Shown here: in pieces, positions 4,772-64,000 of the stretch
How positions within the stretch are numbered: position 1 is the stretch's first letter
Layout of the letters: every line of letters begins with the position of its first letter
NCBI GenBank assembly: GCA_026874595.1
Contig: CM049307.1
Coordinates: 20,189,079-20,253,078 of the forward strand
DNA: 64,000 nucleotides
From: Sipunculus nudus
Taxonomy: Eukaryota; Annelida; Sipuncula; Golfingiida; Sipunculidae
Direction of reading: 5' to 3'
Translations under genes and position numbers: made by a program
The notes under the pieces: generated by a model
Told to the model about the DNA's origin: nothing
Seen by the model: only the letters and a program-made list of their open reading frames with translations
Database searches by the model: none

Positions 4772-4918
4772 TATGGAGTTAATACTGGAGGGAGTATCCT
4801 TCACTAATTATACGGTCGGTAGGGGGCGCTACTGATAAGATATGTCACAACACCACAGTCTAGAATACAATAGTCGGTGGCGAGACAGCGGCAAATAAAC
4901 ATCAGTATTAACAAACCC
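4772..4918 (+). repeat. DIRS-like element repeat A1
   Basis: Begins TATGGAGTTAATA and ends ATTAACAAAC. It aligns along its length in direct orientation with 8960-9101, including the shared cores GGCGCTACTGATA (GAGCGCTACTGATA in A2) and GGCGAGACAGCGGCAA. It marks the left end of the element. Confidence 0.88.
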
Positions 4919-5011
4919 CTTTTTTACAGTACTGATGAACACGTGTGTGAACGGGTCTGTGATTTATCCGGGAATAAGCCTGCATATAATCAAAGGTAGC
5001 GATATGCGCAT

Positions 5012-5419
5012 TTGAATCTTTGGAAAAATACGCCTGTGATTTTAAAGATAATTGCTGCATTTGGACTAAATCTGAAAATTTACCATGAGGACAATGCTGT
5101 CTTCAAGTGTGAACGGCTGAAATGGAACCGGGTGTTTTTTTTCAAGTCAGTCGACGGTACCCCGCAGCGGGTTGTACTAGCTTTACATATCATCTTTCAA
5201 GATAACCCGCGTATGTATATAAGGCTTGCCCTCAAACACTGTGATGACATGAAGAAAAAATTGTCGGCATGGGCCACTCGTCACAAGAACGACGAAAATA
5301 CAATCTCTCCGCTGGCAAACGAGGCCTTCACTTCAATAGAAGCCCTTATCCTCTTAGAAATGGAAAACATCTGTAAAACAAAAATTTCAAGAGGTCAAAG
5401 GAAACTGGTTATTAAGTAG
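5012..5419 (+). pseudogene. Unassigned ORF in the gag position of the DIRS-like element
   Basis: A 135-codon open frame, the longest intact stretch in the element, about 90 bp inside repeat A1. It begins at TTG rather than ATG, so it is more likely the surviving part of a longer frame. It is Lys-rich with a mixed charged and hydrophobic composition; I see no zinc knuckle and recognise no family. A second frame (5442-5675, rich in Asn, Ser and His) overlaps its end and may continue the same protein after a frameshift. The position before reverse transcriptase suggests gag, but this is inferred from element order only. Confidence 0.45.
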
Positions 5420-6441
5420 TTGAAGACCTGCAACCAAAAAAATGACAGATGCAGCAAGGACACAAGACAACCGCCTTTTTCACACCCCGCTCGTTCAAAA
5501 CAAGGTGAGCAATCACCTATCAACACGGCTAATGAAGATCTGTTCATCCAACAGATCAGGTGCTACATGCGCCGACAGCGAACAACTCCTGATGAAACTG
5601 CACCAATTTGCATGCAACATGGTGGCCAAAGACAACAGCCATAAGGCGTCCGGTGTCAGCTTCCAGCCAACCTAGATGGCGTCTTCGTCCTCCGTTCGGT
5701 CGAAACTGACACGACTTATGACCTCACTACCAGGAAAGCTTTCTGGTGTGACCCAAAGATCCACCCGAATACTTAGGCTACATGGGGTAGGTGCAAATTT
5801 CTAGACATTCTTGATTTTGTTGACACTGCAGGTGGGCGTGATGAAATAGTTGTCCTCTCATCACCGCATGAAGGCGCGGACCGACCTTGTCCATTAATGT
5901 AGGACCCAAAAATCCTAGTTTTGACCAATGAACCATACCGCAATGGTCCCTGGCTAATTTAGCCAACTCAACTCACTTGTTAGAGATAACAACTTAAAAA
6001 CAAGAGAGCGTCATGGACTATTTAGCCTACTCCGCTCATGTATATAAGCTCCTAAAATCGCCTGAGAAAACTTTAGTATTTTTATGGGATAGAGAGTACC
6101 GTCTTTTTTTAAGTGCTTCTTCACTTTCGTTTAGGTACGGACGTGAGCTAAACACAGTCGGGCTGGCTGTGTCGTTACGAAATGTTATACCAGAAACCTA
6201 CAGCAACACCTGTGAGCTACCAGCACCCACGTTGGCCGATGGCACCAAACGGACGCTAAATATGTAAGGAGTACACCAGTTTCACGGGCTGTTAGTTCAT
6301 TGCCTGCGAATTCGAGAATGTGTGCTCACGCCAAAGTTGTGCAAAAAGCACTCTGCTGTACAACACCAAGAATAGATGTCCGAACTGCTGACCGTTAAAC
6401 TTTCACGGTAATTATATGCAGATGTCTGGACCAGAGAACTA

Positions 6442-7040
6442 GTGAATACGCATGATAAAGACACAGACTTAATTATTATCGGAGTTCAAAACGGATTTGA
6501 CATTGGTGGCAGGGACGCTGTGCCTAAACAAGCGAGTCTGCCAAGTCACAAAACAGCTATCTTGAATCCTGCTGAAGTCGACAAGCAAATAATGTGTAAA
6601 ATCAAAAATAGACACTATGTAACGCCAGGGAAGCACCATATTATTGATAGCCAATTAGCGACGATACCTAAGGATGATGGTTACGTCAGACCTATATACG
6701 ATTGCAGTCAATCAGCAGGTTTTGCTGTCAATGATTACGTACAATTGACTTCAACACCAGAGTAAATTCTGTCGACGACGCAGTACAGCTGTTGTCAGCA
6801 GGCAACAACATGGCCAAGAAAAACTTAAAATCAGGCTATCGCTCAGTGAAAAAATCAGAACATAGCCAGGAATTCACTGGCCTTTTATGGGTAGACATAG
6901 AAGGAAAACAGTACACCTAGCTTAATTTTGATTCTCAACGAGCCCCCGGGATATTTCACAGGTTAACACAGACAGTCGTGCTGTTTATGTAGTTCCGCGC
7001 GGTCAACAATATTTTAGCATGCTTGGACGATTTTTTAAGA
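6442..7040 (+). pseudogene. DIRS-type reverse transcriptase, broken
   Basis: The 107-codon frame at 6442-6765 has the DIRS-type lead-in (an IxxGVxNGFxIG-like segment) followed by IPKDDGYVRPIYDCSQ and NDYV, the usual start of this reverse-transcriptase family. The frame shifts near 6765 and continues with a SVDDAVQLLSAG-like segment into motif A. There the expected catalytic aspartate (family pattern KIDLKSAYR) reads KKNLKSGYR, with Asn at 6822-6824. The YLDD motif survives as CLDD at 7020-7031, followed by a stop. Loss of the motif A aspartate plus the frame breaks make it inactive. Confidence 0.85.
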
Positions 7041-7259
7041 AATAGGTGAGACACAACAATAATGAATGCTGGCTATGAAAGAACAGATTGCATTAGTTCG
7101 AGAAATAGGCTTTCATATTAATTGGAACAATTAGTAGATCTGTGTAAATGCCCGACTTTCCCTGACTTAAAACCGTGGACACAAATTTAAGTTTACCGTT
7201 AGGAAAATTAGAGGTTGTGCAGACAAACTCATAATCTGACATGCATTTAAAAGTGGCAC

Positions 7260-7830
7260 TTGCAGATTTTTATGGGAAAGCTCAACTGGGTGGCATCCGT
7301 GATACGGGGCGGAAGAGTATTTCTCAGTAGGTTGATCGATGCTATGGACTCACTTAAGGGGAAATATGACCGGCGGAGGCTGGATGAGAACACTCGGAAA
7401 GACAATAATGGTTGTATGAATGTAGCTTTTATTTTGGAGCAAACTCAAGTGACCGGGGTATATACAGACGCTTGCAGTAAAGGTGCGGGGCGTATATGGC
7501 ACCGACTTGTTTAATTGCAACTGGCATTATGATCTTTATTCTTGCAAACAGGTGTATGTTAAAGCCAATGAAACTCGCACTGTCATTCTGGCAGCCCACA
7601 GATGGGCCCATGTGTAGTCAACTAAAAGGATAATTTTTTCTAAGCGACAATAAGACTGCAGTCAGCAATATTAACAAAGGTTATTCTAAGCACAGACACT
7701 GAGGAACATGTTCTGGCCCTGAGTATTATTTAATTTGCACTTTTATGCAGTTTATATGCAGGGTAAATTCAACACCGTCGCTGATTCTGTATCACGGTTA
7801 CATGACCAGACCTATCGTACAAACTTGATC
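7260..7830 (+). pseudogene. DIRS-type RNase H region, broken
   Basis: The frame at 7260-7514 carries GKLNWVASVIRGGRVFLSR, the typical connection between reverse transcriptase and RNase H in DIRS elements, then VYTDACSKGAG, the first RNase H motif with its Asp. After frame breaks, a SDNKTAV motif (near 7647) and a final QGKFNTVADSVSRLHD stretch (about 7755-7805) give the later Asp positions. The domain order and spacing look complete, but several stops separate the pieces. Confidence 0.82.
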
Positions 7831-8888
7831 CATCTACATGCATAACTTTAAGCTACTACCCTTAAATAATCACTTGTCAAGGAAGTCCTGGGTCATATTG
7901 GTCAGAGAATCCGAGGAAGAGATCAAGTTTCCTGCAAACCCTGGATAAACAAGTGGCCTCATACCATATTGCTGCATTAGCGCAAACTACAAAGAAATCA
8001 TACAATACTCATCAAAGCCTTAAAGAGATTCTGTAGATCTCCTTGAATCCCATTAGTCCCTGTTAGCCAGGCGGACTTTCTATGCCTTATAGCTTACTTA
8101 GCAGAGAGATTATGTTACAACTCAATCAAACAGTATCTTAACGTGGTGAGGCTACTACATGAATTAGCCGGCTTTCCCAATTCAGTCAATGATTAAACTC
8201 TCATCACACTGATACTGCCGGATGTTCGCAGGACTCTGGGAGATATGACACGACCTAAATTGCTCACTACAGTCCCCTTTTTGCTCAGATTATTCCAGTC
8301 ATTCCAGTTATTCCAGACCTTTCATCATCTAGAGATATCTGCTTTTTGGCAGTGTGCCTAATTGCCTTCTTCAGTTTTCTGCGTATATCCCACCTCCTTC
8401 AAGCCTCAAGAAACCCAATGGGAGGGGATATACTTTTGTTGCGAAGTTCCTTCTTATTATCCCAGATGGGGTATGCCTCGTAATTAAGAGATCTAAAGCT
8501 ATACAATTCTTAGAAAGATCGCTCTCCATTCCTGTCCCACGTATACCTGGTCACTCCCTTTGCCCGGCACCAGCCTTTCTCTTGCATATCAAAGTGTCTC
8601 CTGGGAAGGCTAACGACCCACCCTTATCGTTTGTACACAGTGGTGTAAAAAACGTAATGGCTAGGATATATTTATTGTTCGGTTGAGATGTGCGTTAAAG
8701 AGGTGTGGTATATGTCCAGACAAATACGCTGGGTATAGTATCCGCAGAGAGGACTTTTGCCTGCAACATCCCCGTAGATGTCTACCAGAAATACATCAGG
8801 CCTAATGTGGAACAAAGGCTTAAAATAGCCCGGACACGAAGTACCTGGATTACCAATAATACTACACTGGGTTTGGCGAAGTTTGGGA
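7831..8888 (+). pseudogene. DIRS-type tyrosine recombinase, broken
   Basis: Fragments in shifting frames match the tyrosine recombinase of DIRS-order elements: a LCYNSIKQYLNVVRLLHELA segment (about 8110-8170), LGDMTRPKLLTTVPFLL (about 8238-8288), and the 110-codon frame at 8354-8686 with KAIQFLERSLSIPVPRIPG. Near 8731-8750 the expected HxxR box (usually GHSFRRG) reads GYSIRR, so the catalytic His appears replaced by Tyr. Beyond it the frame is lost, and I cannot find the catalytic Tyr. This enzyme would insert the circular DNA copy. Its presence, rather than a DDE integrase, separates this element from LTR retrotransposons. Confidence 0.85.
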
Positions 8889-8959
8889 GTATGTAATGGG
8901 AAGACACATAAGCATATTAAATAATATTAAGATCTGAATTATTCATCAATGTGTCTATA
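8889..8959 (+). repeat. DIRS-like element repeat B1
   Basis: A 71-bp sequence repeated in direct orientation at 9303-9373; my hand alignment gives 63 of 71 identical. It abuts repeat A2 without a gap. Confidence 0.88.
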
Positions 8960-9101
8960 TATGGAGTTAATATAGGGGGAGTACCCTTGACCTATTATAC
9001 AGACGGTAGGGAGCGCTACTGATATGCCACTAGACCAGAGTCTATAATACAAAAGTGGGCGGCGAGACAGCGGCAAGTAAGCATTAGTATTAACAAACAC
9101 C
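8960..9101 (+). repeat. DIRS-like element repeat A2
   Basis: Direct repeat of 4772-4918, lying between B1 and B2. In Ngaro/PAT elements the B1-A2 junction corresponds to the joined ends of the circular intermediate. Confidence 0.88.
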
Positions 9102-9302
9102 AGCTTTACCCTTCGGCCCACCCTAATCAACTTATCATATTCGTGTTATAGGATAAGTTTACGTAGAACAGTTATGTCGTATAAGGCTGAACTGTGGTCC
9201 ATAGATGAGGAATAGTGCTCAGGTGGTAGCATGTTTACTTCAATATATGTATTATTACCGCGGATGTTTCTTTGTTTATCTTTAGCTTGTGCTTGGACAG
9301 GG

Positions 9303-9373
9303 GTATGTAATAAGAAGACACATATGCATATTATATAATATTTAGATCTGTATTATTCATAAATGTATCTATA
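9303..9373 (+). repeat. DIRS-like element repeat B2
   Basis: Second copy of the B repeat, starting GTATGTAATAAGAAGACACA and ending ATGTATCTATA. It defines the right end of the element. About 200 bp of non-repeated sequence separates it from A2. Confidence 0.88.
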
Positions 9374-9894
9374 GTTTAATGCTATAAACAGCGGGATGAA
9401 GCAAATGCAGCGCTTTGATGCATGTTAAACGTGTAAATTCAGGCAAACGCAATAAAGTCCTCGTATACACATTACCCTGTCTACGTACTTTCAATATTTT
9501 TAATGGAATCATAGCATTAATGTCAGTTACGGCATAGCTAGAGACCTACCCCAGCCACCTGTCATTGTGGCTAGCATAGCGTGTTTCCTGTTGATCTTCA
9601 AAGCACATGCACAACCCACATTCCTTTATAGTATGAAGGCACGCAATAACCCCCACCTACTATGACTGATATGGCCATGTAGCTTCTATGGAGATAATAA
9701 CATAGCTGAATGAATAGGATGCATGGATTTAGTGATAATTAGGTACCAGGAAGTCCGTTTTGTACCTCCATAATGCCCCTTGCTGGCTTACATTCGTAAT
9801 GCGCACCCGAGTGAATGCTGACGCCCGAGATGAAATGATTGCCGCTGAAGTCATAGCTGCTATGGACTGTAACAGTTAACAAATAGGCAAATAA

Positions 9895-25725: not shown

Positions 25726-26442
25726 CTAAGATATAGTACAATCGTTCCGGGATGGGTCCCCCGTGTTCTTCACCCTCGGGCGCGTCGCCCGCCTGATGAG
25801 GCTCCGGCTTCGGGACATCGGCTTTTCCACTTCAGGGTCTTTGAGTTTGTCTCGGCGATCAGCCATACGCGAGGCATTAGCGCTAAGCCTTCTCTGTATA
25901 ATGGGCTCTAGCTTGCGCACCTCTGGTATATTGGCCAGCTGCAATAGACGCTGAAATATAGCAACTATACCGCCATTGTCCTTCGCCGATACTTCAACGT
26001 GAGCTCCGGGCATCCCTTGTTCCTGCATCCACTCCGCCACATCATCCGCGTCCACGCGACGCTGGTCTTTAAGATCGCATTTATTACCCACAACTACGCA
26101 GGGTAGCTCCTGGTAGTTAGTCCTCAGTTCCTTGATTTGTTCCCATATCTGTTTTACTTCTTCCAAAGAAACTAAGTCAGTCACGGCGTAAACTAACACA
26201 AAAGCGTGCGCCGTTGATATTGAGAGTCTCCGCATGGCAGGAAATTCCAGGTTGCCTGCAGTGTCCAGAATGTCAACTTTGAGGATGGACCCATTGATGT
26301 TGTATTCTCGCGGGTGCAGCTCCTCCACGGTGGGTCGGTATTTTTCCGGGAAGGTGCCGGTCAAGAACCGATGCACGATGCCTGTCTTGCCGACGTTACC
26401 CGCTCCAAGAAACACCAGCCGGTGTCGCTGCTCCTCGCTCAT
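25726..26442 (-). CDS. Ras-family small GTPase (RASD/DIRAS-like), single coding exon
   Basis: A 238-residue Ras-superfamily GTPase that should bind GTP and act as a membrane-anchored signalling switch. Visible motifs: P-loop GAGNVGKT (13-20), switch I Thr38 within PTVEE, DTAGN (60-64), NKCD (120-123) and SAK (152-154). The C-terminus is extended and basic (RSRSLIRRATRPR) and ends in CTIS, a prenylation box whose final Ser favours farnesylation. The segment FPAMRRLSIS after the DTAG motif is typical of the Dexras/Rhes and Di-Ras groups. These also lack the catalytic Gln, here Asn64, so intrinsic GTP hydrolysis is probably slow. The start chosen is the ATG at 26442 in a good context (GGCGCCATGA). 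The frame is open 21 codons upstream to a splice acceptor, so the 5' untranslated region is probably spliced. The exact subfamily is not certain. Confidence 0.93.
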   Translation of the reverse strand: MSEEQRHRLVFLGAGNVGKTGIVHRFLTGTFPEKYRPTVEELHPREYNINGSILKVDILDTAGNLEFPAMRRLSISTAHAFVLVYAVTDLVSLEEVKQIWEQIKELRTNYQELPCVVVGNKCDLKDQRRVDADDVAEWMQEQGMPGAHVEVSAKDNGGIVAIFQRLLQLANIPEVRKLEPIIQRRLSANASRMADRRDKLKDPEVEKPMSRSRSLIRRATRPRVKNTGDPSRNDCTIS

Positions 26443-26501
26443 GGCGCCGGCCCGATCACTCCCAGGGCCTTCACTCTCGATCCTCTGATAACCGCTACCC
26501 T
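26443..26501 (-). other. 5' part of the GTPase exon after a splice acceptor
   Basis: On the minus strand TTTTAATTACCTTTGCAG, a pyrimidine-rich run ending in AG, lies just upstream of 26501. The exon therefore likely starts at 26501 with 59 nt of 5' untranslated sequence before the ATG. An upstream exon must lie at higher coordinates but was not identified. Confidence 0.65.
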
Positions 26502-26519
26502 GCAAAGGTAATTAAAATA

Positions 26520-36628: not shown

Positions 36629-37129
36629 CATATACATATACCAGTCATCTCCTAATAAAGGAGCGTCATTTTACTGTCCCTTTGTCTGAACACTCCTCAT
36701 TTGCATTCATAACTACATTTATACTACTGGTCATATAATGTTCAGTAACGTTGACTTCATCCGGTTTGTATGGCAGCATACTGTCTCGTGGGAGCTCCCA
36801 CTCTTCAGGTGAGTGTGTGTGCGTGTTGGGTGTTTTTTGTAATGAGTGTGGCAGTTTAAGGCCCAGGAAAAGGTCCTTACCTGCCAAGCACAAAGAGACA
36901 TGATTAGTTTTCAGTTTTGTAGAGACTTGCGCTTGGCAGGATTTCGGGCAGAAACTTGTTCTCCGAGTGAAAATGACAAAGAAAAGACGACTGTTTGTAT
37001 ACGCTATGGAGAAATAAACCACTAAGTCCAGTACTGTGAGTGTCTGTGCGCGCGTGTGAAACAGGCGATCACATGATTGTGATCACTTGCAAAAGAACCA
37101 AACGGAACAGTTTTATCTTCAGCCTATAA

Positions 37130-38222
37130 TATTGACACCTGATCTTTGTTTCATATACATGTGGCAACCTGATATTGACACCTAGGCTTTGTGACATCAC
37201 ATGAATCAACCTAATATTGAGACCTGAAATTTTTTACGTGTACATGTATCAACCTGATATTGACACATAGGCTTTGTGACATCACATGAGTCAACCTAAT
37301 ATTGAAACCTGATATTTTTTACGTGTACATGTATCAACCTGATATTGACACATAGGCTTTGTGACATCACATGAATCAACCTAATATTGAAACCTGATAT
37401 TTTTTACGTGTACAAGTATCAACCTGATATTGACACATAGGCTTTGTGACATCACATGAATCAACCTAATATTGAAACCTGATATTTTTTACGTGTTCAA
37501 GTATCAATCTGATATTGACACCTAGGCTTTGTGACATCACATGAATCAACCTAATATTGAAACCTGATATTTTTTACGTGTACATGTATCAACCTGATAT
37601 TGACACATAGGCTTTGTGACATCACATTAATCAACCTAATATTGAAACCTGATATTTTTTACGTGTTCAAGTATCAACCTGATATTGACACATAGGCTTT
37701 GTGACATCACATGAATCAACCTAATATTGAAACCTGATATTTTTTACGTGTACATGTATCAACCTGATATTGACACATAGGCTTTGTGACATCACATGAA
37801 TCAACCTATTATTGAAACCTGATATTTTTTACGTGTACAAGTATCAACCTGATATTGACACATAGACTTTGTGACATCAAATGAATCAACCTAATATTGA
37901 AACCTGATATTTTTTACGTGTACAAGTATCAATCTGATATTGACACCTAGGCTTTGTGACATAACATGTATCAACCTGATATTGACACCTAATCCTTATA
38001 ACATGCTTATGTTTCAACCTTTTATTGACACCTCATCTTTGTGACAACTTATTAACATCTTATCAACCTAATATTCACACCTAGTATTTGTGACTTGCAT
38101 ATTATAAACCTAAAATTGACACCTAATCATTGTGACATGCACATGTGTCAACCTAATATTGACAACTAATCAACCTAATATTGACACCTAATCAACCTAA
38201 TATTGACACCTAATCTCTGCGA
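37130..38222 (+). repeat. 85-bp satellite array built of two related ~42-bp halves
   Basis: The core (37206 to about 37990) repeats every 85 bp. One half is ATCAACCTGATATTGACACA + TAGGCTTTGTGACATCACATGA; the other is ATCAACCTAATATTGAAACC + TGATATTTTTTACGTGTACA. Both start with the same ATCAACCT(G/A)ATATTGA(C/A)A block, so the 85-bp unit arose from a ~42-bp ancestor. The right flank (37990-38222) holds shorter, older variants down to 20-bp pieces. Core copies differ by only one to three bases, so the array is recently homogenised. Confidence 0.95.
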
Positions 38223-41687: not shown

Positions 41688-42540
41688 TCCATACTCCTTT
41701 CTTTTGCTCCCACACTCCTTTTTCTTGCTTCTACTCCTTTCTATTGCTCCCACACTCCTTTCTCTTACTTCTACTCCTTTCTTTTGCTCCCATAATCCTT
41801 TCTCTTACTTCTACTACTTTCTTTTGCTCCCATAATCCTTTCTCTTACTTCTACTACTTTCTTTTGCTCCCATAATCCTTTCTCTTGCTTCTACTACTTT
41901 CTTTTGCTCCCACACTCCTTTCTCTTACTTCTACTCCTTTCTATTGCTCCCACACTCCTTTCTCTTACTTCTTCTACTTTCTTTTGCTCCCATAATCCTT
42001 TCTCTTACTTCTACTACTTTCTTTTGCTCCTATAATCCTTTCTCTTACTTCTACTACTTTCTTTTGCTCCCATAATCCTTTCTCTCACTTCTACTACTTT
42101 CTTTTGCTCCCACACTCCTTTTTCTTGCTTCTACTCCTTTCTTTTGCTCCCATACTCCTTTCTCTTACTTCTACTACTTTCTTTTGCTCCCATAATCCTT
42201 TCTCTTACTTCTACTACTTTCTTTTGCTCCCATAATCCTTTCTCTTACTTCTACTACTTTCTTTTGCTCCCACACTCCTTTTTCTTGCTTCTACTCCTTT
42301 CTATTGCTCCCACACTCCTTTCTCTTACTTCTACTCCTTTCTTTTGCTCCCATAATCCTTTCCCTTACTTCTACTACTTTCTTTTGCTCCCATAATTCTT
42401 TCTCTTACTTCTACTACTTTCTTTTGCTCCCACACTCCTTTCTCTTACTTCTACTACTTTCTTTTGCTCCCATACTCTTTTCTCTTGCCCCCCATATCCC
42501 TTTCGTTTGCTTCCATACCCCTTTCATTTGCTTCCATACT
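41688..42540 (+). repeat. 40-bp polypyrimidine satellite, ~20 copies
   Basis: Unit TCTCTTACTTCTACTACTTT followed by CTTTTGCTCCCATAATCCTT, period 40 bp. Variants (CACACTCCTT, TTTCTTGCTTCTACTCC) are interspersed in a pattern that suggests higher-order repeats. The strand is about 90 per cent pyrimidine with almost no G. ORFs such as the 156-codon one at 42304-42774 are translations of the array (Leu/Ser/Phe-rich) and not genes. The right end decays into longer variants. Confidence 0.95.
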
Positions 42541-55587: not shown

Positions 55588-57570
55588 GCCTACCTCATGA
55601 GTCCCGTAACTATTTTTCCAGTCTACCATACGGGCGCTGTAGGTTACGTCTTGTTTCTTACCTACCTTGTGAGCGAAGTGGTTTTGTACCTTAGTCTCGG
55701 GAGCAAAATGGACTTAAAAAAGTCCCCAGCATACTTTGTGAAGAAAGTAGGCCTGAACCTAGATGCCAGCCTACCACGTGAGTGCAGTAGGCTTGTACCT
55801 TGGTTCACAGCCTTCCATGTGAGAGCAGTAGACCTGTTCCATGGTGCCAGCCTACCATGTGAGCGCAGTAGGCTTGTACCTTTGTTTCACGCCTACCATG
55901 AGATTACAGAAGGCTTTATCCTTGGTTCCTAGCCTATCACATGAGCGTTACTCGTGCAAGCCTTTCATGTCAACGCAGTACGCTTGTACTTTAGTTTCCA
56001 GCCTACCATGTGAGCGCAGTAGGCTTTTACCTTCTTGCCAGCCTTCCATGTGAGCAGAGAAGGCTTGTTTCTTGGTAACTAAACTATGATGCGAGCGCTA
56101 CTGGTTTGTTCCTTGGTGCCAGCCTAACACGTGAGCGCAGTAGGTTTATACCTTGGTGCCAGGCTACCATTTAAGAGCAGTAGTCTTGTCCCTTGGTGCC
56201 AGCCTAACATGTGAGCGAAGTAGGCTTGTACCTTGGTGCCAAGCTACCATGTGAATGCAGTAGGCCCGTACCTTTCTGCCAGCCTACCAGTGAGCGAAGA
56301 AGGCTTCTACCTTGGAGCCTACCATGTGAGCGCTACTGGCTTGCACCTTCTTGTAAACCTAACACCTGAGCGAAGTAGGCTTGTACCTTTTGGTACCAGC
56401 CTATCATGTGAGCACAGAAGGTTTGTTCCTTGGTGACAGCCTATCATGTGAGAGCTACTGGCTTGTACCTTAGTGCAAGCCTATCATGTGAGCGCTACTG
56501 GCTTATAACTTCTTGCAAGCCTAACACGTGAGCGCAATAGGCTTGTACCTACTGGTTTATACCTTCTTGCCAGCCTATCATGTGAGTACACAAGATTGTA
56601 CCTTCTTGCCAGCCTACCATGTGAGCACAGTAGGCTTGTATCTGGGTTCCCAGCCTACTATGTGAGCGCTATTGGCTTGTATATTCTGGCCAGCCTACCA
56701 TGTGAGCACAGTAGGTTTGTAGCTGGATTCCCAGCCTACTATGTGAGCGCTACTGGCTTGTATCTTAGTGCAAGCCTATCATGTGAGCGCTACTGGCTTA
56801 TAACTTCTTGCAAGCCCAACACGTGAGCGCAGTAGGCTTGTACTTTGCTACAAGCCTATCGTATGAGTGCTACTGGCTTATACCTTCTTGCCAGCCAATC
56901 ATGTGAGCACACAAGACTTGTACCTTCTTGCCAGCCTACCATGTGAGCACAGTAGGCTTGTTCCTGGGTTCCCAGCCTACTATGTGAGCGCTATTGGCTT
57001 GTATATTCTTGCCAGCCTATCATGTGAACACAACAGGCTTGTAGCTGGATTCCCAGTCAACTATGTGAGCGCTACTGGCATGTATCTTCTTGCCAGCCTA
57101 CCATTTGAGCACAGTAGGCTTGTAGCTGAGTTCCCAGCCTACTATGTGAGCGCTACTGGCTTGTACCTTCTTCCAATCCGACCATGTGAGCACAGTAGGC
57201 TTGTACCTTGGTTCTCAGCCTACTATGTGAGCGCTACTGGCTTGTACCTTCTTGCCAGCCTATCATGTGAGCACAGAAGACTTTTTCCTTGGTGCCAGCC
57301 TACCATGTGAGCACAGTAGGCTTTTAGCTAGTTTCCCAGCCTACTATATGAGTGCTACTGGCTTGTACCTTCTTGCCAGCCTACCATGTGAGCACAGTAG
57401 GCTTGTAGCTAGTTTCCCAGCCTACTATATGAGTGCTACTGGCTTGTACCTTCTTGCCAGCCTACCATGTGAGCACAGTAGGCTTGTACCTTGGTTCTCA
57501 GCCTACTAGGTGAGCGCTACTGGCTTGTACCTTCTTGCCAGCCTATCATGTGAGCACAGAAGACTTGTAC
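55588..57570 (+). repeat. ~41/81-bp satellite, translatable as a 27-residue repeat
   Basis: About 48 copies of a ~41-bp monomer like CAGCCTACCATGTGAGCGCA + GTAGGCTTGTACCTTGGTGC. To the right, two monomer types (GCACAGTAGGCTTGTA and GCGCTACTGGCTTGTA) alternate as a dimer of 81 bp. Because 81 is a multiple of three, frames stay open over several dimers (147 codons at 56867-57310), giving repeated CEHSRLV and YYVSATGLYLLASL motifs. The left half is less regular and full of stops. The ORFs are most likely a by-product of the period. Confidence 0.93.
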
Positions 57571-59260: not shown

Positions 59261-60689
59261 TCATAAACATCCCGATAAACAATCAGTAAGTATATTGATT
59301 TTCCCTTTAATGTGTGTGATTTCAAGGTTGTATTCCTGTAAGAACAAACACCATCTCAACAATCTTTGATTTTTACTCTTTAACCTATTCATGAACGTGA
59401 GGGGATTGTGATCACTGAAGACAATGATAAAGCCTGAAGTAACATATATTTCAAACTGTTGCAATGCCAAAATCAAAGTGAAAGATACTTTTTCAATAGT
59501 GGAGTAGTTTTTCTGGTTTGCATTAAACTTTCTTGAGAAATAACAATTTAGATGATTTATGCCATCATTTCTTTCTTGTAACAACACAGCACCAGCAGCA
59601 GTATCACTAGCATCTACAGCTAACTTAAAAGGCACAGAAATGTCTGGAGCTGCCAAACTGGTGAACTTTTCAGAATTGCTTTCAAATTCTGAAATGCCTT
59701 TTCCACCGAACATTCCATACAAACGTTTGTTTCTTCTTAAAACAAATTAGTCAAAGGTTCAGCTACAGCAGAAACATTTGCACAAAACTTCCAGTAGTAT
59801 CCAACCATACCAAGAAAACGCATTATTTGCTTTTTGTTTTCTGGTCCAGGAAATGCAAAAATAGCACTTATTTTAGCATCAACAGGTTTTACCTGACCCT
59901 GCCCTACAATATGACCCAAAAATGTTACTTGTGCATGAAAAAACTCAGATTTTACTTAGTTGATGGTCAGACGTGCTTCACTGTGTCTTTCGAAGATTTC
60001 GCGAAGAATTTGCAGATGTTTCTTCTAGGTGTCGCTGTACACGATAAGGTCATCAATATATGCGTCGCAGCCCTGAATGTCCTTGGCAACCACATGGATG
60101 AGGCGCTGGAAAGTGGCTGGCGAGTTCTTCATGCCAAACGGCATAACTTTATACTGGTACAGTCCTTGCGGCGTCACAAATGCGGACACTTCTTTCGCTT
60201 GTTTGTCAGCGGAACTTGCCAGAATCCTTTTAGCAAGTCAAGTTTGGAGACATATCTGGAGCTACCGACTCTATCAATACAATCATCGATCCTCAGAAAG
60301 GGGAACGTGTCATTTTTGGTGACAGAGTTCAGTTTTCGATAATCTGTGCACATACGATAACTTCCATCAGGTTTTGGCACAAGAATACATGGTGAACTCC
60401 AGTTACCGTTACCAGGTTAAATAAAATCATTGTTCAGCATATACTGAATCTTGTACTGTAGATACTTTTGCTTTTCTGGATTCAGTCTATAAGGATGTTG
60501 CTTGACTGCGCTTGCCTCGCCAACATCGACGTCATAGCACAATATGTTAGTTCGCATTGGAATTTCACTAAACAAATGTTCATAATTCCGCAGCAGGTTC
60601 TTGAGGTCTTGTTGTTGTGCGGTAAGGTGTGACAGTGTGGCGTGCAGGTTTTTAAGCACGTCTGAGTTTTTTATATGGTACTGTACCAC
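59261..60689 (-). pseudogene. Gmr1-like reverse transcriptase and RNase H, broken
   Basis: The N-terminal connecting part (60417-60689) is followed by MPKPDGSYRMCTDYRKLN (60380 leftwards) and SKLDLLKGFWQVPL, which retains the motif A Asp. After a frameshift near 60180, the YIDD box is encoded at 60049-60060. The thumb segment (59737-59919) has FLGMVGYYWKFC. RNase H (59261-59722) shows DASDTAAGAVLLQ, STIEK and FSDHNPL, the expected Asp-Glu-Asp residues, and ends DCLSG. Catalytic residues are all present, but at least three frame breaks prevent translation. Confidence 0.9.
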
Positions 60690-60806
60690 ACCGAATGTCT
60701 ACATCACACAATCAATATCTACTTTAACTAGGTCAGGGTCAGTTTTTACACAATTAACAGCAGTAACATTTTGTACAACATCTGATGTGCTATTTCTGTC
60801 ATAATA

Positions 60807-61889
60807 TTATTTCAACATGTTAACATGGCACAGCCGTTTCTTCTTACGTCTATCTGGTGTCAACAGTATGTAATTTAAAACACTGAATTTCTTGTCAACA
60901 ATGTAAGGACCAAAATACCTAGCTTGCAGAGGTCTGCCAGGGATGGGAAGTAAGGCAAGGACCTTTTCACAAGGCTCAAACGTCCTACTTACACTGTGCT
61001 TGTCATACTTTTTTTTCATTTTACTTTGTGTGGATTTGACTTTGCAATCTCACAACAATTGTGTAGTTTGGTGCGAAAGTCTGAGACATACTGCAGTATG
61101 CTAAGAGAATCAGGATTATCAGAAGTTTCTCTTTAAGCAGTTTCAATGGTCCGCGAACTGAGTGTCCAAAAACTAGTTCAAAGGGACTGAAACCCAAGGA
61201 CTCTTGAACGGATTCTCTGACAGCAAACAGCAATAGGTGGATTCCTTCTTCCTAGTCTTTCTGTGTGTCATAGCAATAAGTCCTGATCATGTTTTTTAAT
61301 GTCTGGTATGGCAAAGAGCTGCTAAAGACCTAGCTCAAGCATAACTTGTTGGAATAAACCAGACAAAATTAGACCCTTGGTCAGACTGGACGGATTTTGG
61401 TAATCCATCAGTTGTTGACTTGGTCAGAGCTTTGACAATACTTTTGGCATTAATTTTGCGCAATGGTATTGCCTTAGGGAACCTGGTAGATGCGCACATA
61501 ATTGTCAGCAAGTATTCATGTCCAGATTTTGTTTTTGGCAGTTGTTCAACACAGTCAACAATAATCCTACTGAATGGTTCCTCGAAAGCAGGAATAGGCC
61601 TAAGTGGGGCCTTAGGAGGATTCTGGTTTGGCTTGCCTACCATCTGGCATGTATGACATGATTTATAATATTGTACAACATCTTTCCTGAGGATAGGCCA
61701 ATAGAAGTGTGTACTAACTTTCTGATAAGTTTTATTTATACCTAAATTGCCAGACAAAGGAACCTCATGTGCCATGCTTAGAATTTCATTGCGAAAGCTT
61801 TTGGGCATTACTATTTGATGTTTGATGGCCCACTCATCATCAGCGCATACATCAGGTGGTCGCCATTTACGCATAAGACATAGAAACAA
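60807..61889 (-). pseudogene. Gmr1-like integrase, broken, catalytic Glu deleted
   Basis: The zinc finger region (61889 leftwards) reads HEVPLSGNLGINKTYQK and ends SCHTCQ: the cysteines are kept but the second His expected in this pattern (GHLG) is Asn. The core has IIVDCVEQLP (first Asp) and VQSDQGSNF (second Asp). Just after, near 61345, a deletion of roughly 45 nt removes the conserved segment holding the catalytic Glu. The frame resumes at TLKNMIRTYC and the SVQESLGFSPFELVFGHS segment (61021-61233). The C-terminal GPY module (YFGPYIV) is at 60807-61019 and ends RLCHVNMLK. Confidence 0.9.
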
Positions 61890-62847
61890 ACTGGGTTCTG
61901 TGACAGCTCATCTTTAGAAACTGCCCTGGGAAACAAACACGAAATATCAGGGTCCTTATGCTGTTCCGCAATAAGTTCTGACCTTGAGAGTGCTGCCTCC
62001 TGTACGGGCGAGTCGTTGGACGAGTCACTAGTGATTCCCAGAGTGTTATTATCTGGACCATTATCCTCATGTGTGTTTTTCTTGGCCATAGATCTAGTTA
62101 CAGCACATGAAGGATACAAACCAGGAATTCCTGACTTTCCGGATCAGTGTCCTGATCAAGTGACGGCTTTTCTGTCACTATTGGTACAGGCTGTATTTTG
62201 TCACCTGCAAGATCATTGCCTAGTAGCAACTGAATTCCCTTAAAGGGTAAAGTAGTTCTTATGCCCAAAGTTATATTCCCAGAAATCAAATCTGACTTTA
62301 AATGGATCTGTGAAGCGGAACTGAAGTGTGCTTGTATGAAAACACACCATTAACAAGTAGTGCATGTGCACCAGTAAAGGACCTATTAGAAAATGGCAAA
62401 GTGTTTGCTAACATGAGAGTCTAGCCTAAACCAGTGTCCCTCAAAATTCTAATAGGGGTAGAATCTGAAAAATCAGTGATACAAAACCATCATGTATGAT
62501 TGGCTCAAATAACTCCATTTCAGAGTCAAAAGAAGAATATACTACCTCAGCTTCATCAAACAAAGAACTGACATTGACAGTGTCAGTCATAAACTCTTTT
62601 TCAGAGTCATTAAGGAATCTACATCCTTTTTATCATCAAACTCCTCATGGGAGTCAACAAAGGAATTTTCCTCAGCAGAAACAAACTTCTGTTTGTCATA
62701 AGAGGACCGTGCCTCATTTGAAATACTCTCCCAAGAGTCATTAAAGAGAATACTCCTCGCAGGAGTCCTGAAGGGCCTAGCCTTATTACATTCCTCGCAG
62801 GAATCAACTGAGGTTTTTACCCCGCAAGCTACGGAATCTTCTTTGGA
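61890..62847 (-). pseudogene. Gmr1-like protease region and linker, broken
   Basis: The aspartic protease signature survives as LRDTG (DTG codons at 62430-62438), but a stop follows four codons later. Further on, the frame at 62098-62289 holds TTLPFKGIQLLLGNDLAGDK, the conserved segment after the protease core in this group. The frame at 61811-62119 (TRSMAK then acidic linker) leads into the integrase. The stretch 62450-62840 is Glu/Ser-rich spacer with several frame changes. Confidence 0.75.
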
Positions 62848-64000
62848 TTAAGACGGCACTTGGGCCTGCGTAGTATCAAACTCTTTACGAGAGTCAATAA
62901 AGGAGTTGTACCTCTTATTTACATGAAAAGAGCCTGGCTCTTGTACTATGCTATACATAGATTTTGAAACAAAACCAGAAGGTTTGCTATTTGGTTTATT
63001 CGCAATTTTCCAGCAGTCAGATATTAGATGACCTTCCTTCTTGCAGTAATTACAGATTTTCCTTGAAAATGACTGGTCTTTGTTGGACTTAGACACAGTG
63101 GACGTGGACTGAGATGTAGCAATGGACTTTATTGAACTACCAGGACTACTAGTACTGGATGACTGCACTTTAAACTGATTTTGACCATACTGATTTACAT
63201 TCTTGTTTGTGAATGACTGGTTTGATTTTCTAGTAAAGGACATTTTGTATTTCAATGAATAATTATCAGCTAATTGAGCAGCAATGTCAAGTGTTTCAGG
63301 ACTTTTCTCATCAAGAAAAGTGTTAACATCTGCGTTAATGCAGCGCTTAAGTTCTTCAAGCAAAATCAACTAGCGCAAATTGTCATAATCTTTCATTACA
63401 TTTTTAGAACTACACCAGCGATCAAACAACTGCTCTTTAGCCCAAGCAAATTCGACGTAGGTCTGTTCTTTGCGTTTTTTCCAATTTCTGAATTTCTGGC
63501 GGAAACCTCTGGAACTAACTCATAACCTTTTAGGATAAACCGTTTTACCAGGTCATAGTCAGCTTCTACTGAAAGCTCTGTATAAATTTCTCTGGTCTTG
63601 CCAGTCAATACACTTTGTAACAGCATAGTCCAATTTTTCTAAGGCCATTTTAAATTTTCAGCTACCTTCTCAAAGTGTAAGAAATATTTATCAACCTCTT
63701 TTTCTTGAAAAGGTGGGACAAGTCTAATGTGTTTAGTAACATCAAAACTGTGATTTTGGGCAGCACTTAGACTATGTCTAGTTTAAGTCTTTCTTACTCC
63801 AGGCGGTTTAACTCAATTTCTTTTTCTTTTTCTAGTCTTTCTCTATCTAACCTTTCATGTTCTTCCCTCTCTCCTCCTTGTTTTTCTAATTCTAACTGTT
63901 TTAATGCTACCTCATGTTGCATTCCTAACTTTTTTAATTCTAATTGCATAGTAAGGCTGTCATTTTTGGATATTTCAACCTTACTCACTTCAATTAAACT
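62848..64000 (-). pseudogene. Gmr1-like gag, broken, partial
   Basis: Three pieces. The N-terminal part (63794 to the window edge) is a charged coiled coil rich in Leu, Lys and Glu. The middle (63396-63626) has LLQSVLTGKTREIYTELS and ILKGYELVPEV, a capsid-like helical segment typical of this group. The C-terminal part (62848-63369) has a Ser/Thr-rich linker and a CCHC zinc knuckle, CNYCKKEGHLISDC (about 63013-63055), for RNA binding. Frameshifts separate all three. Confidence 0.87.

Follow-up and report, generated by a model that had tools for sequence, protein, structure and literature searches.

A probable old and degenerate Ngaro-like retrotransposon with split direct repeats in the genome of Sipunculus nudus

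Introduction

The described elements closest to the one reported here are the Ngaro-like retrotransposons of the DIRS order, including DIRS-53_XT of Xenopus and the types found in Cafeteria burkhardae, which in the excerpted text of PMC9210276 and PMC8547959 share the plan A1-[ORFs]-B1A2B2 and carry Gag, reverse transcriptase (RT)/RNase H and tyrosine recombinase (YR) genes with no methyltransferase (MT). The same excerpt of PMC8547959 describes isolated AB repeats in the Cafeteria elements and likens them to solo LTRs. PAT-like elements also combine split direct repeats with RT/RNase H and YR, as set out in part of PMC4157794, and are defined by a methyltransferase. DIRS1-like elements contain RT, RNase H and tyrosine recombinase as well, and are distinguished in the available portion of PMC3266345 by inverted terminal repeats, an internal complementary region and a methyltransferase. 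A warning that structure alone can mislead in classification is given in the excerpted part of PMC4157794.

The window analysed here is a stretch of 64,000 nucleotides from the Sipunculus nudus genome (contig CM049307.1, 20,189,079 to 20,253,078), and the element within it occupies 4772..9503 on the + strand, or about 4.73 kb, with roughly 24-27 bp gone from its left side and a right end placed near 9503. It is in all likelihood an old and dead Ngaro-like retrotransposon copy (DIRS order) within an animal genome. It has the repeat plan and the gene content of the Ngaro-like reference elements and, unlike them, is degenerate with a shortened internal junction. A hydrolase ORF is reported in amphibian Ngaro in the portion of that literature drawn upon here; the window element has none, and the approximately 20 bp between its YR and B1 leave no room for one. 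The methyltransferase that defines PAT elements does not fit in the window element, and the inverted terminal repeats, internal complementary region and methyltransferase of DIRS1-like elements are likewise lacking. The locus adds a Ngaro-like family in a genome where both young relatives and relatives with a methyltransferase are also present, and ends, junctions and solo copies can thereby be compared side by side within one genome; for general biology it is an ordinary case.

Results and Discussion

Repeats and gene remnants

Two pairs of split direct repeats frame the element. The A1 repeat (4772..4918, + strand) aligns with A2 at 8960-9101 over 121 matches, 20 mismatches and 7 gap columns (86% identical; K2P 0.158), and B1 (8886..8959, +) aligns with 9300..9373 (+), the part of B2 common with B1, over 65 matches and 9 mismatches with no gap (88% identical; K2P 0.133). 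The local scores of 186 for the A pair and 112 for the B pair lie far above the highest values, 51 and 47, obtained from 500 first-order Markov samples per pair, and an unprompted repeat search also returns both pairs, with A in three pieces separated by small gaps. The complete extent of A2 is 8960..9109 (+), followed by a spacer at 9110..9299 (+) that recurs between A and B at other loci and is for this reason considered part of the element. Behind the common part of B2 lies the remainder of that repeat, here called the tail (9374..9503, +), which carries an AATAAA at 9451-9456 and the native right end. The order A1-body-B1-A2-spacer-B2, all in direct orientation, is as the earlier note had proposed, and both pairs do align. 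Its coordinates match the portions that can still be aligned; they are not native edges, as B2 extends to about 9503 and both A copies have lost their first 24-27 bp or so.

Much of the body was read through a young sister family, L047, which has the same A1-body-B1-A2-spacer-B2 plan with repeats that are 99-100% identical. Its RT matches RVT_1 at 4.6e-20 and its YR matches the phage-integrase SAM-like model at 1.2e-5, one bit below the Pfam cut-off. In tblastn searches with L047 ORFs, for which E values refer to a comparison against the 4.8 kb element only, a stop-broken Gag remnant was found at 5729..6372 (E 3e-31), RT at 6412..7499 and RNase H at 7489..7842 (together E 1e-85), and a tyrosine recombinase with stops and frame changes at 7899..8866 (E 9e-33). 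A further piece from the N-terminal side of Gag, at 5258..5416 within an open frame at 5000-5416, matches the 454-aa Gag-like ORF of L048 (blastp E 1e-11, 24/53 identical). All of these lie on the + strand in the order Gag, RT, RNase H, YR, and the RT, RNase H and recombinase remnants noted earlier are corroborated by homology. The RT frame is open from 6412 to 6762 and is then interrupted by stops and frame changes. None of the window's 10 open fragments scored above a family cut-off in Pfam, with one match far below, and IMG/VR was scanned with two RT queries, the window piece and that of L047, which gave eight and three stretches, respectively, none of them confirmed. As its genes contain stops and frame changes and about 155 bp at the junction and 24-27 bp at the left end are gone, the window copy itself is unable to work.

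Class placement

The combination of split direct repeats, a common strand for all domains and a gap of 56 bp between RNase H (similarity to 7842) and YR (similarity from 7899) makes the element Ngaro-like by the structural definitions given in excerpts of PMC4157794 and PMC9210276, a placement drawn from structure and a within-genome tree rather than from named references. The 56 bp leave no room for a methyltransferase, and in L047, L048 and L049 RNase H likewise runs directly to YR with no MT between.

The distribution of methyltransferases was compared with an RT-RNase H tree of 23 rows, all from the same genome, in which seven MT-bearing elements form a branch with 100/100 support apart from the window and 15 other rows. 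The latter consist of L047, L048, L049 and 12 RT-match loci; these 12 are what is left of 15 loci taken from the RT search once L026, which is the window, and L030 and L038, which coincide with L047 and L048, are set aside. As the open RT piece (6412-6762) has 114 matches in the genome, window included, the tree samples a small part of the RT family, and its rows are anchored on L047, which may favour that side; the RNase H-YR gap was read in L047, L048 and L049 among the 15 rows. The Dam model PF05869 has 11 genome matches, and none of these (0/11) falls within the window or coincides with the RT location of any of the 15 window-side rows. Ten Dam loci were fetched and seven contain an RT match; L052, L054 and L056, with no RT match, are not among the tree rows. 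Identity of the window element is 31-51% to the 15 window-side rows and 18-22% to the seven MT-bearing elements. Forcing it into the MT-bearing branch is mildly disfavoured (AU p 0.03, SH p 0.038), where the AU values are to be read as rough because a tree grouping the window with the MT-less rows also receives AU p 0.022 though its likelihood is within 0.19 of the best. The 56 bp gap and the separate branch of MT-bearing elements agree with the lack of a methyltransferase and the leaning towards Ngaro expressed in the earlier note.

An element of PAT-like descent that lost its methyltransferase secondarily, and has a Ngaro appearance only, is an unlikely alternative. Split direct repeats are common to PAT-like elements, and a loss of this kind has been proposed for a lineage of Caenorhabditis briggsae, both in the excerpted text of PMC4157794. 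However, the absence of MT from L047, L048 and L049 as well as from the window makes it a feature common to a deep group. The MT-bearing elements of this genome also fall on the other branch, although that branch may be DIRS1-like and not representative of PAT.

Native ends of the element

The right end of the element probably lies near 9503 and not at 9373, as comparison with other loci suggests that the tail belongs to B and ends in a conserved motif. Among eight other loci with a tail, seven carry the stretch 9374-9498 behind B, and in five of these it adjoins B; approximately 200 bp lie between B and tail in L019, and the first 31 bp of the tail are without alignment in L023. The tail ends in TTCTRTATTA in L012, L019 and L020, a similar motif stands at the end of the L047 B repeat, and the tail aligns with that B end. 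A reading of the stretch behind B2 as a shared insertion target was rejected, given its position behind B in 7/8 tail loci and its alignment with the sister B end. A search for a second tail copy inside the element gave scores of 37 (direct) and 40 (inverted), against a maximum of 47 and a mean of 36.7 in 100 shuffles, and thus found none.

On the left side, A is directly preceded by a motif about 24-27 bp long (TGTAATATTGACATCGGTTAA and variants) in 10 of 11 other readable loci, as judged by eye (L009, L010, L011, L013, L014, L015, L019, L021, L023 and L025; L012 is diverged there). The motif aligns with the first bases of the L047 A repeat. By this comparison of copies, the A repeat natively starts about 24-27 bp further left than 4772. 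The motif is missing before both A1 and A2 in the window, and no residue of it was detected in the left flank of A1, where 498, 408, 500 and 459 of 500 shuffles scored at or above the real sequence for four versions of the motif.

The B1-A2 junction

In the window, B1 ends after its first 74 bp and A2 begins about 24-27 bp late, the two meeting at 8959..8960 (+). The junction is complete in all three sister copies read (L047 and two more of its family), where it reads TGTATTAA-ATGTATG. Relative to this form, about 155 bp (130 of B, corresponding to the native last ~130 bp missing from B1, and 24-27 of A) are gone at 8959/8960, and on the sequence comparison the tight contact is probably a deletion rather than the native arrangement. 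The direct abutment of B1 on A2 that had been reported is present in the window but is probably not native, and it serves as a caution that edges drawn by eye in an old copy can mislead. Within its own family a B1-A2 junction was seen in the window copy alone, and the native form of that junction is drawn from the sister family.

One point that a private deletion leaves to be considered is that A1 and A2 have almost the same starting base, a coincidence for which two independent losses alone do not account and whose chance is, by our own estimate, about one in five. In addition, L042 stops at the same point of B (72/74 bases in one alignment and 67/74 in another), and no tail was found behind its B, which is followed instead by unrelated sequence. 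These observations speak for a subfamily whose repeats are shorter and in which the short junction is native, a reading that nevertheless appears distinctly improbable: the window's own B2 has a full tail, the A-start motif is present at 10/11 other readable loci, the sister-family junction is complete in 3/3 copies, and what follows B in L042 is not A2. A bolder reading would take the common A1/A2 start and the B stop of window B1 and L042 as real processing points, either the 5′ end of an RNA or an alternative site of recombination, the window copy then being the relic of a round of replication whose internal junction could not restore the left end; this is regarded as very unlikely. A deletion at 8959/8960 is thus retained as the best reading of the contact.

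The idea of a DIRS1-like element whose inverted ends were misread as direct can be virtually dismissed: the genome does hold MT-bearing elements, one of which (L065) has an 80-bp inverted pair, yet both terminal pairs of the window element are direct, none of the five inverted pairs listed by the repeat search links its left with its right end, there is no room for an MT, and it falls on the other branch of the tree. Inverted ends were on these grounds rejected, in line with the split-direct-repeat, Ngaro/PAT-like rather than DIRS1-like architecture originally suggested. The inverted pair of L065 stands behind its YR frame, the side that was read, and would fit DIRS1-like ends.

Proposed replication

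Following published models, the live element would have multiplied via an RNA intermediate. During reverse transcription the internal B1-A2 copy would serve to bring the two ends together in a circle, which the tyrosine recombinase would then recombine into the genome with no target-site duplication. The sister copies fit such a circle, as the two joined ends together match the internal junction in all three. Bases shared between the two ends of these copies are short or none, as judged by eye, and the corresponding left end of the window element is lost; the L047 flanks found no counterpart in the end sequences fetched for the other two sister copies. The AATAAA lies 47 bp before the likely right end of the window element, a position suggesting that the final bases of B2 would probably have been missing from the RNA and could be supplied by the internal copy.

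Other loci of the family

Searches of the assembly (1.43 Gb, 153 contigs) with four DNA queries gave at least 10 matches for A1 (two of them the window's own), at least nine for the stretch behind B2 (one own), at least six for the YR end with B1 and the start of A2 (one own) and at least five for B1 (one own). Together these define at least 15 loci besides the window. Body sequence is kept in four of them (L011, L013, L014 and L042), the left side of L042 having one body match of 237 bp and others that are short and weak.

In six of the at least 15 loci (L012, L015, L016, L019, L023 and L025), A runs straight into the A2-B2 spacer with no body. Neither B1 nor body was found upstream of these six in the 0.8-4.7 kb fetched, except for a weak B-like stretch 3.9 kb upstream of the A piece in L016 (E 2.5e-5), on account of which L016 may not be a clean solo copy. 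From their sequence arrangement the six loci look like products of recombination between A1 and A2, and they are similar to the 'solo AB' repeats of Cafeteria Ngaro as presented in the excerpt of PMC8547959. Elsewhere A runs into B (L021), A occurs by itself (L009 and L010), B is found together with the tail (L020), and in L022 the tail alone is present.

Relatives of the Ngaro-like element in the genome

The young sister family of the decayed Ngaro-like retrotransposon in the window is represented by L047 and L061-L064, which are located on contigs C4, C2 and C1 of the Sipunculus nudus assembly (G000). The paired repeats of L047 are 99-100% identical and the repeats of different copies are ~94-98% identical to each other, and this lineage therefore moved far later than the window copy. 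Another locus of the window element's own family, L042 (G000:C11:25083529, - strand), is a copy retaining the body and B1, where B breaks off at the same point as in the window B1 and is followed by unrelated sequence. The methyltransferase-less Ngaro-like relative L049 is located at G000:C14:60898500-60906000, and the stretch retrieved carries the same 300 bp at both ends (spacing of 6655 bp, 100% identity); this locus is perhaps a tandem copy. The Dam-methyltransferase match L052 (G000:C130:45599-45979), where a search for a reverse transcriptase match returned none, lies on a small contig with densely packed and overlapping frames, possibly a bacterial or phage contaminant.

Other features of the window

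On the - strand, 59261-61907 and 62848-63369 hold remnants of a Ty3/Gypsy-type LTR element, with Pfam matches to RT_RNaseH (59264-59746, - strand, 2e-29) and Integrase_H2C2 (61338-61907, - strand, 1.5e-19). No Pfam family was matched by the further open frame at 62848-63369, which may encode the Gag of this element. Tandem repeat arrays are found at 37127-38162 (period 85), 41692-42486 (period 40) and 55746-57570 (period 40/81), and the long open frames coinciding with the latter two are probably not genes. An uninterrupted open frame for a Ras-family GTPase occupies 25726-26508 on the - strand (Pfam Ras, 2.3e-39), with Di-Ras2 as its nearest solved structure (1.4e-37).
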